Origin: Acidimicrobiia bacterium
GTDB lineage: Bacteria > Actinomycetota > Acidimicrobiia > UBA2766
Assembly: GCA_020850945.1 (NCBI GenBank)
Contig: JADZDR010000032.1
Span: 62,001 to 126,000, forward strand
Direction of reading: 5' to 3'
Length of the DNA: 64,000 bases
Program-made: the position numbers and the translations under genes
Part shown: one piece after another, positions 10,208-62,788 of the stretch
Numbering within the stretch: position 1 is the first letter of the stretch
Layout: each line of letters starts with the position of its first letter
Notes under the pieces: model-generated
What the model saw: the letters and a program-made list of their open reading frames with translations, nothing else
Database searches by the model: none
Told to the model about the DNA's origin: nothing

Positions 10208-11899
10208 CTGAGCACCACGGAGACAGTTCAACTCGTCCACTTCCTGAGGGACCAGGCGGTCTGCACGCCCGAGCAGGCGGACCAGGCGCTCGCGGAGGAG
10301 TACTCGAATCCCGGCGCGCGGCCGATCACGGCGATCCTCGTCGGTGTCGGTGTGAGCGAGTCGGCCCTCCTCGCATCCCTCGCGAGTGCCGTGGGCATGG
10401 AGTTCTACGACCTGGGCGAGGTCGACATCGATCCGTCCGCTGTCGCCTTGGTGCCCGAGACGATGTGCCGACGCCTCGGCTGCCTGCCCATCGCCTACGA
10501 CGGCCGCACGCTCGTCGTGGCGATGTCCGATCCCACGAACGTCCTCGCCAAGGACGACCTGCGCGCGGTCACGCGCTCGGAGATCAGCGTCGTCCTCGCC
10601 ACACAGGAGGACATCGAGGGGGCGATCAACCGTTTCCACCGCATGGACGAGTCCTTCGACACGATCACGGAGGGCCTCGACGTCGAAGGTGGCATCGAAT
10701 CGGTAGAGGACATCGCCGGCAGTGAGATCGTCGACGAGGCACCCGTCGTCAAGCTCGTCAACCTCCTCATAACGCAGGCCGTCAACGACCGCGCATCCGA
10801 CATCCACGTCGAACCCCAGGAGAAGGACGTGCGCGTGCGGTACCGCATCGACGGAGTCCTGCACGAGGTGATGCGGTCACCCAAGACGATCCAGAACGGT
10901 GTCATCAGCCGTCTCAAGATCATGGCGGACCTCGACATCGCCGAACGCCGTGTCCCCCAGAGCGGCCGCATCTCGGTGAAGGTGGCCCACAGGGCGGTCG
11001 ACCTGCGTGTGGAGACGCTGCCGACAGTCCATGGCGAGAAGATCGTCATGCGGCTCATCGACAAGTCGGCCGGCCTCCTCGACATCAACGACATGGGGCT
11101 GTCGGAGACCGACATGGCGCGCTACAGGTGGGCGACGAGTCTGCCCTACGGTGCGATCATCGCCTCGGGACCGACGGGGTCGGGCAAGTCGACGACTCTC
11201 TACGCGAGCCTCAACCTCCTCAACGACGCGTCGCGCAACATCATCACGGTCGAGGACCCGGTCGAGCAGAAGATCGCCGGGCTCAACCAGGTGCAGGTGA
11301 ACACGAAGGCGGGCATGACCTTCGCGTCGGCGCTGCGCTCGATGTTGCGGGCCGACCCCGACGTCGTGATGGTCGGTGAGATGCGTGACAAGGAGACTGC
11401 CAAGATCGGGATCGAAGCCGCCCTCACCGGTCACCTCGTCCTTTCCACGATCCACACGAACGACGCTCCGTCGGTCATGACACGACTCATCGAGATGGGG
11501 GTCGAACCCTTCCTCGTCGCGAGCGCCATCGACTGCGTGATCGGCCAGCGCCTCGCCCGGCGTCTCTGCCTGAAGTGCAGGCAGTCCTACCAGCCGACCG
11601 TCGAGACTCTCGTCGAGGCGGGCTGGGAGGGAGCGGGGGATCTCGAGGAGATCCCCGCCATGTATCAGGCGGTCGGGTGCCAGGCCTGTGCCAAGACCGG
11701 ATACTCGGGCCGGATCGCGATCTTCGAGATCCTCCTCGTCACGGAGGAGATCGAGCGGCTCTGCGCCGAGCGCGTGAGCTCGGACGAGATCAAGCGGATC
11801 GCGATCGGCCAGGGCATGACGACACTGCGCCAGGACGCCCTCGGCAAGGCCGTGCAGGGGATCACGTCGATCGAGGAGGTCCTGCGTGTGACGGCGTGA
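10208..11899 (+). CDS. pilB: Type IV pilus extension ATPase PilB
   Basis: The hexameric motor that drives pilus polymerisation at the cytoplasmic face. The order is an N-terminal MshEN/T2SSE_N domain (residues about 1-150), then a GspE-type ATPase with GPTGSGKST (K327), GEMRD with E391 of Walker B, and a zinc motif of two CxxC pairs (C454/C457 and C491/C494). Length from CTG 10208 is 563 residues, as expected for PilB. Starting at GTG 10352 would cut 48 residues of the MshEN domain. It begins the pilus cluster but is separated from pilT by a palindrome-bracketed insertion. Confidence 0.92.
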   Translation: MSTTETVQLVHFLRDQAVCTPEQADQALAEEYSNPGARPITAILVGVGVSESALLASLASAVGMEFYDLGEVDIDPSAVALVPETMCRRLGCLPIAYDGRTLVVAMSDPTNVLAKDDLRAVTRSEISVVLATQEDIEGAINRFHRMDESFDTITEGLDVEGGIESVEDIAGSEIVDEAPVVKLVNLLITQAVNDRASDIHVEPQEKDVRVRYRIDGVLHEVMRSPKTIQNGVISRLKIMADLDIAERRVPQSGRISVKVAHRAVDLRVETLPTVHGEKIVMRLIDKSAGLLDINDMGLSETDMARYRWATSLPYGAIIASGPTGSGKSTTLYASLNLLNDASRNIITVEDPVEQKIAGLNQVQVNTKAGMTFASALRSMLRADPDVVMVGEMRDKETAKIGIEAALTGHLVLSTIHTNDAPSVMTRLIEMGVEPFLVASAIDCVIGQRLARRLCLKCRQSYQPTVETLVEAGWEGAGDLEEIPAMYQAVGCQACAKTGYSGRIAIFEILLVTEEIERLCAERVSSDEIKRIAIGQGMTTLRQDALGKAVQGITSIEEVLRVTA

Positions 11900-11905
11900 C
11901 CCGCA

Positions 11906-11955
11906 CCGACTGGGTACCTGAGCGGCGATATATCGCCGCTCAGGTACCCAGTCGG
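11906..11955. repeat. Perfect 50-bp palindrome, copy 1 of 2
   Basis: Every base from 11906 to 11955 pairs with its mirror base around the centre at 11930/11931. The half-core reads CTGGGTACCTGAGCGGCGAT and then A at the centre. The 42-bp core (11910-11951) is identical to that of copy 2 at 13764-13805. The four outer bases on each side (CCGA/TCGG) differ from copy 2 but still pair with each other. It starts six bases after the pilB stop. There is no T-run, so it is not a plain Rho-independent terminator. Confidence 0.95.
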
Positions 11956-11963
11956 GACTCTGG

Positions 11964-12134
11964 GCCCACGCCGACTGGTGGCGTCCGGTGGCGGTTGCCG
12001 GAGCGGGGGTATCGCTCGTGCTGTCCGCGCTGTTCTTCAGCGTTTGGCTGATCTTCGCCGTGGCTTTGGATGTCGGCTTGATCGTGGGGATCGTGTGGCT
12101 GAACTGGCCGGCCCAGACGACGATCGGCGCGTGA
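11964..12134 (+). pseudogene. Remnant of a membrane-protein gene (3' end only)
   Basis: An open frame from the edge of the palindrome to TGA 12132-12134 encodes AHADWWRPVAVAGAGVS followed by a nearly continuous hydrophobic stretch that could form one or two membrane helices, then WLNWPAQTTIGA and stop. It has no start codon, no ribosome binding site and no upstream part: reading back, the frame enters the palindrome and hits a TGA within it. It looks like the 3' tail of a gene whose front was lost. A chance open frame cannot be excluded, and the family is not recognised. Confidence 0.5.
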
Positions 12135-12207
12135 TGCGCGCCGCAGTCAGGCGTGTTCCTGCGGGGATTTCGAGCCGTTCTCGGCCTCGACGACTTCGGG
12201 AAGGCCT

Positions 12208-12239
12208 GAGCATCGTTGTAGCATACTACAACGATGCTC
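12208..12239. promoter_or_regulatory. Operator of the toxin-antitoxin operon
   Basis: Arms of 14 bases, GAGCATCGTTGTAG (12208-12221) and its exact complement (12226-12239), flank CATA. The right arm covers the antitoxin start codon. CATACT (12222-12227) ends six bases before the ATG, so the dyad probably contains the -10 of a leaderless message. A bound antitoxin would block its own transcription. Confidence 0.7.
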
Positions 12240-12479
12240 ACCGTCCCCGAGGCCGCCCGCCGCACGGGCAAGAACGCCGAGACCATTCGCCGCTGGATCC
12301 GGGAGGGACGCCTCCGTTCGCAGAGGGTCGGAACCCAGTACCTCATCGACGAGGACGCGTTGGCGGAGGCAGTCGGGGAGGCCGAGCTGATCCCACGCGT
12401 AGGGGGAGACGAATCGGCGACGGGTGAGACCCTGCCGAACCTCCTCGCCGCACTCCAGCGTTCGCGATCCGGAAGATGA
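12234..12479 (+). CDS. Antitoxin with excisionase/MerR-like helix-turn-helix
   Basis: An 81-residue protein. The N-terminus MLTVPEAARRTGKNAETIRR and the following WIREGRLRSQRVG form the winged helix-turn-helix seen in excisionase-like regulators. The C-terminal part (about 50-81) should bind and neutralise the toxin. The gene overlaps the toxin by four bases (ATGA) and its start lies in a perfect dyad, both typical of autoregulated toxin-antitoxin pairs. No Shine-Dalgarno is seen. Confidence 0.85.
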   Translation: MLTVPEAARRTGKNAETIRRWIREGRLRSQRVGTQYLIDEDALAEAVGEAELIPRVGGDESATGETLPNLLAALQRSRSGR

Positions 12480-12886
12480 GACTCGTCCTGGACGCAAGCG
12501 CCGCGCTCTACGAGCTCGTGTCCCCGACAGGCTGGACGCCGGTCGAAGCCGCGAACGATCTGCTCGCCCCCGTCCGCATCCTTTCCGAGATCACCTCCGT
12601 CCTGAGCGAGACGACCTGGCGAGGGGAGATCAGCCGGGAGCTGGCCGACGTGGCGTTCTTCCGCCTGCGGGACTCGAACATCGAGACGTCATCGGACTTC
12701 GGGCTATACGAGGACGCCCGACAGGTGGCTGCCCTGCGCGGCTGGGCCAAGACAAATGATGCCGAGTACGTGGCGCTGGCCATGCGCGAATCCGCGCCGT
12801 TGTTCACGCGCGATGCCCGGTTGGCGCGGGGGGTGGCCGACCTTGTCGCCGTGCTGGGGCCGGACGACGTCGCCAGATCGGACTGA
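12476..12886 (+). CDS. PIN-domain toxin (VapC-like ribonuclease)
   Basis: A 136-residue PIN nuclease. The acidic residues that hold the metal in PIN domains are visible: D6 (LVLDASAA), E38 (ILSEITSVL), D95 (TNDAEYVALA) and D113 (FTRDARLA). VapC-type toxins cleave specific RNAs when the antitoxin is lost; the target here is unknown. It overlaps the antitoxin gene and lies in the palindrome-bracketed cassette inside the pilus cluster. Confidence 0.9.
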   Translation: MRLVLDASAALYELVSPTGWTPVEAANDLLAPVRILSEITSVLSETTWRGEISRELADVAFFRLRDSNIETSSDFGLYEDARQVAALRGWAKTNDAEYVALAMRESAPLFTRDARLARGVADLVAVLGPDDVARSD

Positions 12887-12910
12887 GCCCGCAGAATCGC
12901 ACCCGACTTC

Positions 12911-13696
12911 TCAGGCCGGCCGCCGTGCCGTGAAGAGGATCCGCTTGAACGTGAAGAGGTACGGCCCGGGGTCGGGAAGCAACGCCTCGACGCGGCGTCT
13001 GTAGGCGTCGACGAAGGCTGCGCGACGGTCCTCGGGCAGGCGGTCGAGGTACCAGTTGAGAAGCGTGCCCCGCATCCAGTCCACGAGCGCACACGTGCTC
13101 GGCAACACGTGCGGGTACACGCGCAGGATGACTTCGAGGTCCTCGAAACCGAGCGCGTGGAGCACCTCGACGTACTCCTCCGGGCCGAGGACATCCGGTG
13201 GTCGACCCGAGTCGCCGAGGAGGTCCGCCCACGGCTCCTCCCGGCACAGGTCGCGTGCCAGGGTTTGGGAGGGGTGGTCGGTGTTCGCGGGGACCTGCAC
13301 TGCGAGCCGGCCACACGGAGCCACGAGGTGCGAGACGGAGGGCAGAAGTGAGCGGTGGTCGGGGAGCCACTGGAGGGCGGCGTTGGAGAACACGACGTCG
13401 AAGGGGCCGGCCTCGAGCCAGCGGTCGACGTCGGCGAGGTCCCCCTGCGCGAACCGGATCCCGTCGCGGTCGTGCGCGGCGCAGGCGGCGATCATCGCCG
13501 GGCTCGAGTCGACGCCGAGAGTCGCGGCGAGACCCAACCCGACGTGCAGGTCGGCCGTGAGACGCCCTGTCCCGCAGCCGAGGTCGATGCCCTTCCCACC
13601 CGGCACGGGGTCGAGCCCCGCGAGGAGGTCACGGAACGGCATCTCCCGCTCGGCGCGGAACTCCTCGTACTTCACGGGGTCCCAGTCGTGTGGCAT
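12911..13696 (-). CDS. tam: Trans-aconitate 2-methyltransferase-like enzyme
   Basis: A 261-residue class I SAM methyltransferase. MPHDWDPVKYEEFRAEREMP at the start and GIDLGCGTGRLTADL (motif I) match Tam, which methylates trans-aconitate, an inhibitor formed from the citrate-cycle intermediate cis-aconitate. FSNAALQWLPDH is also characteristic. ATG 13696 aligns with Tam starts; an upstream ATG at 13723 would run into short tandem repeats. It converges on the toxin gene with 24 bases between stops. Substrate identity rests on similarity alone. Confidence 0.8.
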   Translation of the reverse strand: MPHDWDPVKYEEFRAEREMPFRDLLAGLDPVPGGKGIDLGCGTGRLTADLHVGLGLAATLGVDSSPAMIAACAAHDRDGIRFAQGDLADVDRWLEAGPFDVVFSNAALQWLPDHRSLLPSVSHLVAPCGRLAVQVPANTDHPSQTLARDLCREEPWADLLGDSGRPPDVLGPEEYVEVLHALGFEDLEVILRVYPHVLPSTCALVDWMRGTLLNWYLDRLPEDRRAAFVDAYRRRVEALLPDPGPYLFTFKRILFTARRPA

Positions 13697-13703
13697 GGCG
13701 CAA

Positions 13704-13754
13704 GCCTGCCACAGGCCTGCCACAGAGCCGGGATCGCGTCAGGGATCGCGTCAG
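13704..13754. repeat. Short tandem repeats beside the second palindrome
   Basis: GCCTGCCACAG occurs twice in tandem (13704-13714, 13715-13725), and GGATCGCGTCAG occurs twice in tandem (13731-13742, 13743-13754). A partial third unit (GGCTCGTG) leads into the palindrome at 13761. Such tandem duplications are what slippage or repeated end-joining next to a long hairpin would leave. Confidence 0.85.
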
Positions 13755-13760
13755 GGCTCG

Positions 13761-13808
13761 TGTCTGGGTACCTGAGCGGCGATATATCGCCGCTCAGGTA
13801 CCCAGACA
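13761..13808. repeat. Perfect 48-bp palindrome, copy 2 of 2
   Basis: All bases from 13761 to 13808 are self-complementary around 13784/13785. The 42-bp core 13764-13805 is identical to 11910-11951. The outer three bases (TGT/ACA) differ from copy 1 (CGA/TCG in the same places) yet still pair. It ends 83 bases before pilT. Confidence 0.95.
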
Positions 13809-13891: not shown

Positions 13892-15577
13892 GTGTCGATC
13901 CAGACGGCGAGAAAGGGGCATCGTTTGCAGACGACAACATCCGGCCTCGCTCAGGCCCTGCGCGAGCGCCATGTGCTCGCGGACCAGGAGCTCGACACCT
14001 ATCTCCAGCGGGAGCAGATCGAGCAGATCCCGCTCGACCAGTTGCTCCTCCGCGACGGGCGTGTCTCCGAGAAGCAGCTCGCCGAGCTGCGCGCGGCCGA
14101 GCTCGGCCTGCCGTTCATCGATCTCGAGCTCGTGCAACCGGGTGCCGAGGCCGTCGCCCTCGTACCGGCCGACGTCATGCGCGCGCACCGTGCGCTGCCC
14201 CTGCACGTGAGCGAGGACGGTCTCTTCGTAGCCGTCGCCCATGCCGACTTCACGGAGGCTGCCCAAGCCGTCGCCCACGCCTCGAACCTGCCTGTACACG
14301 TCGCGCTCACGTCGGCGTCGGACCTGGAGGTGTTCCTCGGACGTGTCCTCGCCGACGCCCCGCGAACGGAATCGGTCCCGGCCGCAGCGCCACCGGTCCC
14401 GCCCGTCGCGGAAGCTGTGCCCGTGGCCGGCGGGGCGGGCGAGAGCGGCCTCATCGAGATGCCCACCATCCTCGAGTCCGACGCGGGCGAGGATGTGCAC
14501 GAGGTCACCTTCGAGCTCCACATCAACGACCTCCTCGAGAAGGTCCTCGAGGTCGGAGCCTCCGACTTGCATCTCACCGAGGGTGCACCCCCCGAGGTGC
14601 GCGTGCACGGCGACCTCATGCCCGTCCCCGGCTACGACGTGCTCGACGCCCAGACGCTGCGCCGCCTCATCTACGCCATCCTCACGCAGAAGCAGCGCGA
14701 GCGCTTCGAGGAGGACTGGGAGCTCGACCTGTCCCACCCCCTGCCCGGCAAAGCGCGCTTCCGCGTGAACCTGTTCGTGCAGAAGGGGTCGTTCGGGGCG
14801 GTGCTGCGCACGATCCCGGACCAGATCGTCCCGATCGAACAGCTCGGCCTCCCCAAGATCGTGCGGGAGTTCGCCGACATTCCCCGCGGCCTCGTCCTCG
14901 TCACCGGCCCCACGGGATCGGGCAAGTCGACGACCCTCGCCTCCGTCGTCGACATCGTGAACTCGACGAAGCCGGTCCACATCATGACCGTCGAGGACCC
15001 GATCGAGTTCCTCCACCACCACAAGCGGGCGATCGTGAACCAGCGCGAGATCGGCGAGGACACGAAGTCGTTCTCCAACGCCCTGCGTCACGTGTTGCGC
15101 CAGGACCCGGACGTGATCCTCGTCGGCGAGATGCGCGACCTCGAGACGATCCAGACCGCACTCACGGCGGCCGAGACCGGCCACCTCGTCTTTGCGACCC
15201 TCCACACGCAGGACGCACCCCAGTCCATCGACCGCGTGATCGACGTCTTCCCGCCCCACCAGCAGCAGCAGGTACGGGTCCAGCTCGCCACGTCACTCCA
15301 GGCGATCATGACACAGCAGCTCATCCGCACCTCGGATGCGCGGGGGCGGTGCGTCGCGACGGAGGTCATGGTGGCGACGCCCGCGATCCGCAACCTGATC
15401 CGGGAGGGAAAGATCTACCAGATCTACTCGGCGATGCAGGCCGGTGGTCAGCACGGCATGCAGACCATGGACCAGTCGCTCGCCGATCTCGTGAAACAGC
15501 GCCGCATCACCTACGACCTGGCGCTCGAACGGTGTGCCAACCAGACGGACCTGGCCCGGCTCTGCGGACGCATGTGA
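13892..15577 (+). CDS. pilT: Type IV pilus retraction ATPase PilT with extra N-terminal MshEN-like domain
   Basis: A 561-residue motor ATPase. Residues about 215-545 match PilT: GASDLHLTEG, GPTGSGKST (K345), GEMRD and the AIMTQQLI stretch typical of PilT rather than PilB; the zinc-binding CxxC pairs of PilB are absent. Residues about 15-160 form an MshEN/T2SSE_N-like region (LGLPFIDLEL, AHRALPLHVSEDGLFVAVA), followed by a Pro/Ala linker. Ordinary PilT is about 350 residues and lacks this region. The start is GTG 13892, with AAGGAAAGG about eight bases upstream. Retraction or motor-exchange function is inferred. Confidence 0.88.
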   Translation: MSIQTARKGHRLQTTTSGLAQALRERHVLADQELDTYLQREQIEQIPLDQLLLRDGRVSEKQLAELRAAELGLPFIDLELVQPGAEAVALVPADVMRAHRALPLHVSEDGLFVAVAHADFTEAAQAVAHASNLPVHVALTSASDLEVFLGRVLADAPRTESVPAAAPPVPPVAEAVPVAGGAGESGLIEMPTILESDAGEDVHEVTFELHINDLLEKVLEVGASDLHLTEGAPPEVRVHGDLMPVPGYDVLDAQTLRRLIYAILTQKQRERFEEDWELDLSHPLPGKARFRVNLFVQKGSFGAVLRTIPDQIVPIEQLGLPKIVREFADIPRGLVLVTGPTGSGKSTTLASVVDIVNSTKPVHIMTVEDPIEFLHHHKRAIVNQREIGEDTKSFSNALRHVLRQDPDVILVGEMRDLETIQTALTAAETGHLVFATLHTQDAPQSIDRVIDVFPPHQQQQVRVQLATSLQAIMTQQLIRTSDARGRCVATEVMVATPAIRNLIREGKIYQIYSAMQAGGQHGMQTMDQSLADLVKQRRITYDLALERCANQTDLARLCGRM

Positions 15578-17568: not shown

Positions 17569-17600
17569 GCACGTAACAGAAGCAAGCGGCCTGGCCGGTC

Positions 17601-17706
17601 CAGTCAAAGGCACACTCGCAGCGATGCGGGGTCGCAAAGCCACGGGACTCACAGCGGCAGTCGATTGGCATTCGTTGTCCAGTCGCAACGAGTCCGCCGG
17701 GCTACC
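17601..17706 (+). ncRNA. Cyclic di-GMP-I (GEMM) riboswitch
   Basis: The hallmarks occur in the family order. AAAGGCACAC (17606-17615) is followed by a hairpin of ACTCGCA and TGCGGGGT closed by the GNRA tetraloop GCGA (17621-17624). Then comes the conserved GTCGCAAAGCC (17631-17641) with ACGGGACT. A second helix forms from GGACTC (17645-17650) with GAGTCC (17690-17695). The element closes with GCCGGGCTACC (17696-17706). The outer P1 helix is less clear. It lies in a 312-base leader that holds no gene and ends at the prepilin start 17806, so c-di-GMP binding should set prepilin expression. The direction of control cannot be told by eye. Confidence 0.85.
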
Positions 17707-17805
17707 TGGCCGGCGCATCCACCCGTGCGGTGGGACGTCTCCCAGTCAGGCATCACGGCCACCAGACGCTTGCGGACCAGCTACCGCAATCCACGGAGGT
17801 GGACC

Positions 17806-18279
17806 GTGTACAAGCGCCTTGCGGCGTTGAAGGACAAGGAAGAGGGATTCACGCTCATCGAGCTCATGGTCGTGGTCCTCATCATCGCCATCCTGATCGC
17901 CATCGCCATCCCGACCTTCCTCGGCGCCCGACAGCGTGCCCAGGACCGTGCCGCGCAGAGCGACATCAGAAACGCGTTCACGGCCGAGAAGACGCACTAC
18001 ACCGACACAGAGGCCTACACGGACGTGGGAGCGACGATCGACGCCATCGAGCCCTCGCTCACGTACCAGGACAACAGCCTCAACCCGCCGGCGAACACGG
18101 TCGGACTCGACCTCGGTGCGAGCGCACAGGAGGTCTGTGTCGTCAAGCAGTCCAACTCGGGCCAGTGGTTCGGTCTGAGGGACCAGGCCACGGGCGCCGG
18201 CTCCGGCACCACCTACTTCTCAGGTGCGGCTGCGCCGGGAGCGTGCAACGCTGCGACGTTCGCCCTGACCGAGTGGTGA
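17806..18279 (+). CDS. pilA: Type IV prepilin PilA (second; riboswitch-controlled)
   Basis: A 157-residue prepilin. The leader MYKRLAALKDKEEG is followed by FTLIELMVVVLIIAILIAIA; cleavage falls after the Gly and Glu5 is present. GARQRAQDRAAQSDIRNAFT continues the long N-terminal helix. Two Cys (EVCVVK and GACNAA) could form the C-terminal disulfide. The start is GTG 17806, with GGAGG six bases upstream. It is probably the major pilin, because it has its own promoter, a c-di-GMP riboswitch and a strong following hairpin. Confidence 0.93.
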   Translation: MYKRLAALKDKEEGFTLIELMVVVLIIAILIAIAIPTFLGARQRAQDRAAQSDIRNAFTAEKTHYTDTEAYTDVGATIDAIEPSLTYQDNSLNPPANTVGLDLGASAQEVCVVKQSNSGQWFGLRDQATGAGSGTTYFSGAAAPGACNAATFALTEW

Positions 18280-22478: not shown

Positions 22479-22525
22479 ACGTGGGCGTACTCAACCACGC
22501 TCAGCGTGGTTGAGTACGCCCACGT
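22479..22525. repeat. Perfect 47-bp palindrome, family 2, copy 1
   Basis: It is self-complementary from 22479 to 22525 around the single centre base 22502. The arm reads ACGTGGGCGTACTCAACCAC and then GCT. It forms the last eleven codons and the stop of the AbiEi/DUF559-like gene on the minus strand. Related copies lie at 23504-23552 and 23565-23615, on the other side of that gene. Confidence 0.95.
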
Positions 22526-23503: not shown

Positions 23504-23552
23504 CACGTGGGCGTACTGACCCACGCTGGTTGTGTTTGAGTACGCCCACGTG
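23504..23552. repeat. Inverted repeat, family 2, copy 2
   Basis: Arms CACGTGGGCGTACT (23504-23517) and AGTACGCCCACGTG (23539-23552) pair perfectly. The 21-base centre holds a decayed version of the copy 1 centre (CCCACGCTGGTTGTG). Confidence 0.93.
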
Positions 23553-23564
23553 AGGGGTAGGCAG

Positions 23565-23615
23565 CCATGTGGGCGTACTTACCCACGCTGGTTGTGGTTG
23601 AGTACGCCCACGTGG
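23565..23615. repeat. Inverted repeat, family 2, copy 3
   Basis: Arms CCATGTGGGCGTACT (23565-23579) and AGTACGCCCACGTGG (23601-23615), with one mismatch. The centre resembles copy 2. It ends 30 bases before the aroC start and 18 bases before its -10 element. Confidence 0.93.
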
Positions 23616-61924: not shown

Positions 61925-62788
61925 TCAGCCGGGCCGCCCGTCCGCCTCGCCGTCCGGCGGAGGGGGCGGTGGTGCGTACTGGGGATCGACCTGCGGCGGT
62001 GGAGGCTGGACCCCGGCTCCTCCGGCGGGAGGGGGTGGGGTGGGGAACTGCTGAGGTGGCGGTGCTTGGCCGGGTCCGGGTGGGGGTGTCCCCTGGGGTG
62101 GGAACTGGCCGGGTCCGGGTGGGGGTGCTTGGCCGGGTCCGGGTGGAGGTGCTTGGCCGGGTCCGGGTGGAGGTGCTTGGCCGGGTCCGGGTGGGGGTGC
62201 TTGGCCGGGTCCGGGTGGAGGTGCTTGGCCGGGTCCGGGTGGAGGTGCTTGGCCGGGTCCGGGTGGAGGTGCTTGGCCGGGTCCGGGCGGAGGCTGGGGT
62301 GTGACCTCACCCAGCGGCGGACCCTGGGCGGCCAGGGCGAAGTCCCCGCCGGGGGGTGGCGGAGCCTGCGCGGCAGCCGGGGCGAAGCCACCGCCGGGGG
62401 GCGGCGGAGTCTGGGCGGTCGGGACAGGCTGGGCCTGGGGTTGCGGCTGTCCGCCGGGTGGCGGTGGCGCGGCCTCGGGGCCCGGTGTGGCACCCTGAGG
62501 TGCACCGGCAGGCTGCGCCTGGGGGGCCCCGGCCGGCTGCTGCTGCCGGGCCGCCATCTGGGCCTGGTAAGCCGCCTGCTGGACCTCGTAGATCGCCATG
62601 TCGACCTCGTACATGGCATGTATGAGACGCTCCACCTCGTCCGGAGGGACCTGCTTCGCGGTCCGCTCACCGTAGAGCGCGTAGCCGAGATCCTTGGCGA
62701 GACCATCCATCTTGTGACGCAACTGGAATTCGTCGGCCTTGGCACTGCCTTGGTCGACCACACCCTTCACCTTGTCCATAAACCCCAT
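61925..62788 (-). CDS. Protein with conserved helical head and proline-rich repeat tail
   Basis: 287 residues. The first 90 or so (MGFMDKVKGVVDQGSAKADE and a helical region with DLGYALYG) form a compact conserved-looking head. The rest is almost entirely Pro, Gly, Gln and Ala, with eight or more units of APPPGPGQ encoded by 24-bp tandem repeats. ATG 62788 is chosen for GGGAG upstream. No membrane segment or signal peptide is present, so the tail is cytoplasmic and probably a scaffold; function unknown. Confidence 0.75.
   Translation of the reverse strand: MGFMDKVKGVVDQGSAKADEFQLRHKMDGLAKDLGYALYGERTAKQVPPDEVERLIHAMYEVDMAIYEVQQAAYQAQMAARQQQPAGAPQAQPAGAPQGATPGPEAAPPPPGGQPQPQAQPVPTAQTPPPPGGGFAPAAAQAPPPPGGDFALAAQGPPLGEVTPQPPPGPGQAPPPGPGQAPPPGPGQAPPPGPGQAPPPGPGQAPPPGPGQAPPPGPGQAPPPGPGQFPPQGTPPPGPGQAPPPQQFPTPPPPAGGAGVQPPPPQVDPQYAPPPPPPDGEADGRPG
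62061..62291 (-). repeat. 24-bp tandem repeats in the proline-rich gene
   Basis: Eight near-identical 24-bp units: one at 62061-62084, then a 39-base variant spacer (62085-62123), then seven at 62124-62291. They differ only by single G/A or T/C changes, so the array is recent or homogenised and likely to vary in copy number between strains. Eight codons per unit keep the frame. Confidence 0.93.

Follow-up and report, generated by a model that had tools for sequence, protein, structure and literature searches.

A 42-bp perfect palindrome flanking a toxin-antitoxin pair at a pilus locus of an Acidimicrobiia bacterium is probably a recently spread, REP-like mobile repeat

Among described systems, the closest to the repeat reported here are the REPs, palindromic sequences of 20-40 bp which lie between genes, are enriched between unidirectional and convergent genes and occasionally occur inside genes (PMC3733652). 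REP types are defined by a GTAG or CGTC end (PMC3733652; PMC8266576), and for the CGTC-tagged REPs, which are likewise short palindromic repeats, no dedicated transposase is known (PMC3733652). The 42-bp palindrome described below has the features by which REPs are recognised, as it is short, palindromic, multi-copy, intergenic and biased to the 3' sides of genes, and with the REP/RAYT (TnpA-REP) system, REPtrons, BIMEs and REPINs it further shares the preference for convergent gene pairs and a rare copy inside a gene. In contrast to REP/RAYT and BIMEs it has neither GTAG nor a loop or bulge, its perfect symmetry leaves no strand-specific end, and its copies are solitary instead of being arranged in BIMEs. 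A RAYT-type REP was rejected because the palindrome lacks a GTAG end and the genome lacks a Y1 transposase (Y1_Tnp/RAYT, PF01797, was absent from the 98%-complete genome, with 5 of 14 control genomes positive; a search for Y2 transposases gave no signal in the control genomes). The CGTC-tagged type, which also is a short palindrome with no known transposase, was rejected since the hairpin end carries no CGTC and instead has A/T at position +1 (97%); neither GTAG (or a variant of it) nor CGTC was present at the palindrome ends, outside which the bases are variable. MITEs are likewise small, non-autonomous and bounded by inverted repeats, the palindrome being nothing but such repeats, but were rejected because we found no target-site duplication of 1-15 bp and no end of a parent insertion sequence (half-site with ≤1 mismatch). 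Three other groups can be likened to it by description only. The small dispersed repeats of cyanobacteria, reportedly described by Elhai in 2008 as about 20-27 nt long and thought to be mobile, are also tiny and dispersed and, to our knowledge, have no known enzyme, but are not 42-bp perfect palindromes. The palindromic elements of Rickettsia are imperfect, 90-150 nt long and can sit in frame inside genes; they share with our repeat the dispersed hairpins and, with one of its copies, the in-frame position. Mitochondrial GC clusters and double-hairpin elements are dispersed hairpins as well.

The window, by which we mean the whole 64,000-nt stretch analysed (G000:C32:62001-126000), belongs to the 3.9-Mb genome under study (G000) and contains the core CTGGGTACCTGAGCGGCGATATATCGCCGCTCAGGTACCCAG in two identical copies 1,854 bp apart (Table 1). 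A search for its 26-bp centre with ≤3 mismatches gave two matches in the window versus none in 100 shuffles, and the RNA of copy 1 (11890-11975) folds with a predicted -69.6 kcal/mol (z -10.6). The original prediction of an exact 42-bp core present twice about 1.85 kb apart, within stems of 48-50 bp, was confirmed at the positions listed, and Pfam agrees with its reading of a PIN toxin, an antitoxin and a methyltransferase between the palindromes and of pilus genes outside them.

Table 1. Features of the palindrome pair and its surroundings in the window (positions are those of the window).
Feature	Position	Strand	Description	Context
Palindrome copy 1	11906-11955 (core 11910-11951)		Perfect stem of 50 bp, 25-bp arms, outer bases CCGA/TCGG	10 nt 3' of the pilB stop
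Palindrome copy 2	13761-13808 (core 13764-13805)		Perfect stem of 48 bp, 24-bp arms, outer bases TGT/ACA	Between the start of the methyltransferase gene (minus strand) and the second pilus ATPase gene
PilB/GspE-type ATPase	10352-11899	+	Pfam: MshEN and T2SSE	Left neighbour
3' fragment of a putative membrane-protein gene	11956-12137	+		Frame open from palindrome copy 1 onwards
HTH_17/excisionase-like antitoxin of the toxin-antitoxin pair	12234-12479	+	Pfam	Outside the repeat
PIN-domain toxin	12476-12886	+	Pfam	Outside the repeat
Tam-like SAM methyltransferase	12911-13723	-	Pfam	
Second pilus ATPase, PilB/PilT family	13892-15577	+	MshEN and T2SSE	Right neighbour

The membrane-protein fragment had no homologue in G000-G003 and no Pfam match, the PIN toxin had no ortholog in G001-G003, and the antitoxin had no counterpart in G001 or G002 and one weak match in G003 (51% over 37 aa). 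Apart from this match, the toxin-antitoxin pair and the fragment are specific to G000 among the four genomes. Several further features were observed in the window: the fragment begins right at palindrome copy 1, a possible rearrangement junction; an inverted repeat with 15-bp arms (12207-12240) overlaps the start of the antitoxin gene and is probably the antitoxin operator; a c-di-GMP-I riboswitch-like match at 17600-17710 (51.9 bits versus a gathering score of 59) precedes a pilin-like gene at 17806 by about 100 bp; and 24-bp tandem repeats at about 62060-62290 encode the proline-rich repeat CACCCGGACCCGGCCAAGCACCTC.

The two palindromes are members of a genome-wide repeat. Searching the whole genome yielded 57 matches to the 26-bp centre (≤3 mismatches) and 55 to the 42-mer, and about 45 of the 57 copies stand singly. 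Of the 54 copies that were complete, 43 agree at all 42 positions, nine have one substitution, copy L128 carries compensatory changes in two pairs, and copy L131, at a contig end, differs from the core at four positions. Such divergence of well below 1% among copies points to a recent, lineage-specific expansion. All nine single substitutions break a base pair and L128 is the sole fully compensatory copy, so for the core the suggested drift of sequence under preserved symmetry is not borne out. Apart from contig ends and mutated copies, no 17-bp half-site (≤1 mismatch) was found on its own; for ends with ≤1 mismatch, the repeat thus consists of the palindrome alone and does not form the terminus of a bigger insertion sequence.

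Some copies and some other repeats of this genome deserve separate mention. The starts of contigs C72 (L130, 1-200) and C82 (L131, 1-120) carry nearly the same flanks, inverted, around palindromes with differing core variants, a likeness that may reflect strain variation, duplication or end-of-contig errors. At L139 (about 5058) and L140 (about 5021) the flanks of the two copies, which are paralogous gene ends, resemble each other for tens of bases on either side; here the palindromes are identical and the flanks have diverged. A second, unrelated hairpin repeat (CACGTGGGCGTACTCAACCAC, a short loop and GTGGTTGAGTACGCCCACGT) is located at 22479-22525 and about 23530-23615 of the window and is also found genome-wide. 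With ≤3 mismatches allowed, its half-site was counted 58 times in forward and 54 times in reverse orientation, frequently as tandem arrays whose period is 61 bp; it is more diverged than the 42-bp family. At four or more places the genome also carries arrays of a third dispersed motif, GCGCGCGA..TCGCGC together with AGAACGCGGTTCGCGCGCAA (L038 about 459, L040 about 1109, L045 about 6348 and L137 about 6544).

Outside the genome under study the repeat was not found. None of the 394 other genomes of the class that were searched, including one of the same genus (G001) and two of the same family, contains the palindrome, the 42-mer had no copy in 59 other relatives, and the exact 34-mer had no match in a wider collection of genome contigs. 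A 20-mer matched in that collection only in Rheinheimera and in a cyanobacterium, at one place each, which we judged to be chance or unrelated. Furthermore, a 22-mer was not found in viral contigs (IMG/VR), plasmid BLAST gave no match, and our literature search found no description of a 42-bp palindrome repeat. Empty sites are provided by G001: at five loci whose flanks are conserved on both sides (L002, L007, L010, L041 and L043), it is collinear and has no palindrome; as the genes of the two species share about 80% nucleotide identity, these sites are not base-exact. In 222 kb of G001 no other dispersed 18-mer repeat was found.

The placement of the copies was analysed with genes called by a simple script that had been trained on the codon usage of G000, so that individual distances are approximate. 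Although coding sequence makes up about 90% of the DNA sampled, a single copy of 54 (L043) lies inside a gene, where it is read in frame within an epimerase-family gene and faces a gap of 21 aa in the alignment with the G001 ortholog (64% identity). Of the placed copies, 73% lie within 45 nt of a gene 3' end, after the stop codon, versus 22% for random intergenic points. Where both neighbours were called (n=48), 15 copies are between convergent genes (5.8 expected by length, a 2.6-fold excess), 8 between divergent genes (13.0 expected) and 25 between co-directional genes, and 21 of these 25 are nearer to the end of the upstream gene. In nine cases the predicted stop is the palindrome's own TGA, for example in a glycosidase that ends in YVGQGTITG in G001 versus YVGLGT in G000. 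The families scanned in 98 genes next to copies are ordinary, many of them housekeeping (including gyrB, uvrB, dnaB and ffh), and no associated transposase was among the 25 most frequent families listed per library for these genes.

The sequences next to the palindrome carry a signature of about 9 weakly conserved bp per side. Position +1 is A/T in 101 of 104 flanks, +2 is mostly C or G, G is favoured on both sides at +6 (65/104, p=4e-8) and +8 (74/104, p=3e-13), and T is favoured on both sides at +9; of the 51 centre dinucleotides obtained by joining the flanks, 34 are TA and 10 are AT. The original prediction had also noted that the outer bases pair within each copy, and this holds genome-wide as a statistical excess that peaks at the three bases next to the core: at +1, +2 and +3 the opposite flanks were complementary in 44, 30 and 25 of 51 copies, versus 29.4, 19.8 and 14.2 in shuffles. 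Runs of at least four paired flank bases occurred 10 times versus 2.6 in shuffles with +1 held fixed (p<2e-4), and 11 of the next 12 flank bases are paired at L043 and 8 of 8 at L044. Direct repeats of n=1-15 showed no excess, with a deficit at n=1-3. These flanks fit insertion at weakly palindromic W^W-centred targets, for which the strict A/T at +1 argues, and/or template switching on the hairpin that adds a few inverted bases, for which the variable lengths of the paired runs argue; both may act. Hairpin template switching is described as a way of lengthening and repairing palindromes in PMC7202029 and PMC8794818.

The pair at the pil locus had been taken for the brackets of a cassette, and possibly for a non-autonomous palindromic element acting pairwise to capture and move small cargo. 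Neighbouring copies ≤2.5 kb apart are indeed somewhat more frequent than expected (6 versus 2.2, p=0.016), a modest clustering, and the G000-specific stretch of membrane fragment and toxin-antitoxin pair has one boundary, the left one only, at palindrome copy 1. However, most copies are single, and the six close pairs bracket unrelated genes (GlsB-like, DUF559-like, DUF6036/AbiEii-like with a small partner, a DEAD-box helicase, a metallophosphoesterase and the toxin-antitoxin/methyltransferase group), some of which have G001 relatives at 56-65% identity that are possible orthologs. Moreover, at the pil locus of G001 the order is pilB, a minus-strand Tam-like methyltransferase, a glycosyltransferase-like gene (an assignment made by reading the sequence itself) and the second ATPase, and both the palindromes and the toxin-antitoxin pair are missing there; similarity to the methyltransferase starts 25 nt after pilB, and the protein has 58% aa identity to that of G000. 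A second ATPase also follows soon after pilB in G003 and, by a weaker match, probably in G002. Since the methyltransferase follows pilB in the palindrome-free G001, it is older than the palindromes and did not come as their cargo; it and the toxin-antitoxin pair are neighbours of the repeat. A composite or cargo element was thus rejected on account of the unrelated bracketed genes, the lack of a common cargo rule and the age of the methyltransferase, and pairwise capture appears highly improbable. What stands of the original prediction is a mobile-looking palindromic element with no transposase nearby; what fell is the mobilisation of cargo, as the two palindromes proved to be 2 of about 57, mostly single at gene ends throughout the genome, an outcome that the prediction itself had named as speaking against paired brackets.

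That the copies are functional 3'-end signals (bidirectional terminators or stabilisers of mRNA 3' ends) kept by selection, with their spread being secondary, would agree with their concentration just past stop codons and between convergent genes and with a hairpin so stable as RNA that it could influence transcript ends. We consider this unlikely, since the flanks contain no T-run after the hairpin, on which ground a classical intrinsic terminator was rejected, and no terminator-like prediction fell at the palindromes; a terminator does not require identity over 42 nt, the sister species has no palindromes at the same genes, 8 of the 48 placed copies lie between divergent genes, and the one-mismatch copies break their pair without compensation. 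In searches for known RNA families the palindrome gave only sub-threshold matches to microRNAs and viral elements, as any strong hairpin would. Perfect dyad symmetry, the conserved flanks and the many housekeeping neighbours could also suggest an operator-like site of a dimeric DNA-binding protein that organises the nucleoid, acts in segregation or controls a regulon; the flank preferences would then belong to the site. This is very unlikely given that the copies lie after genes and not at promoters, that they are absent from the species of the same genus and all other searched genomes of the class, and that 42 invariant bases far exceed the need of known operators. Finally, repeated perfect palindromes look like junction adapters, and no fewer than six contig ends coincide with a copy or lie within one; an artefact of assembly or library preparation, such as a palindromic linker, is nevertheless hardly credible when a single copy in 54 interrupts a gene in DNA that is mostly coding, the flanking genes are collinear with G001, and the copies have diverged, one of them with compensatory changes.

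We therefore favour, with a probability of roughly three in four, the reading that the palindromes are members of a recently spread, REP-like mobile repeat of 42 bp with about 57 copies and not the ends of a cassette. The recurrence throughout the genome, the restriction to this lineage, the placement, the empty sites and the failure of the cassette idea are established by the data; mobility, its mechanism and what the symmetric flanks mean are inferred. A trans-acting enzyme might insert the hairpin where the target is weakly palindromic and has A/T at its centre, mostly T^A; alternatively, it may be copied by hairpin foldback or template switching, which would also account for the short inverted complementarity of the flanks. 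In its most specific form, this mobile repeat would be a pure 42-bp palindrome which an enzyme outside the known REP-mobilising families inserts into weakly symmetric sites (consensus CRCNNNSW^WSNNNGYG) at their dyad centre, without duplicating the target but leaving short inverted flank duplications as the sign of hairpin-foldback copying, a tentative proposal that is rather doubtful as a whole. Insertions would be retained chiefly in untranslated 3' regions, which would tolerate a strong hairpin; there it may help to end or protect transcripts. The palindrome reshapes gene ends, as the stop codon of nine predicted genes is supplied by the element. As the roughly 57 copies are nearly identical, the sister species offers empty sites, the flank signature is sharp and one insertion is in frame, the insertion rule becomes measurable, and what appears to be a very young palindrome expansion in a lineage without a Y1 (RAYT-type) transposase would offer a clean system for the study of RAYT-less repeat spread.
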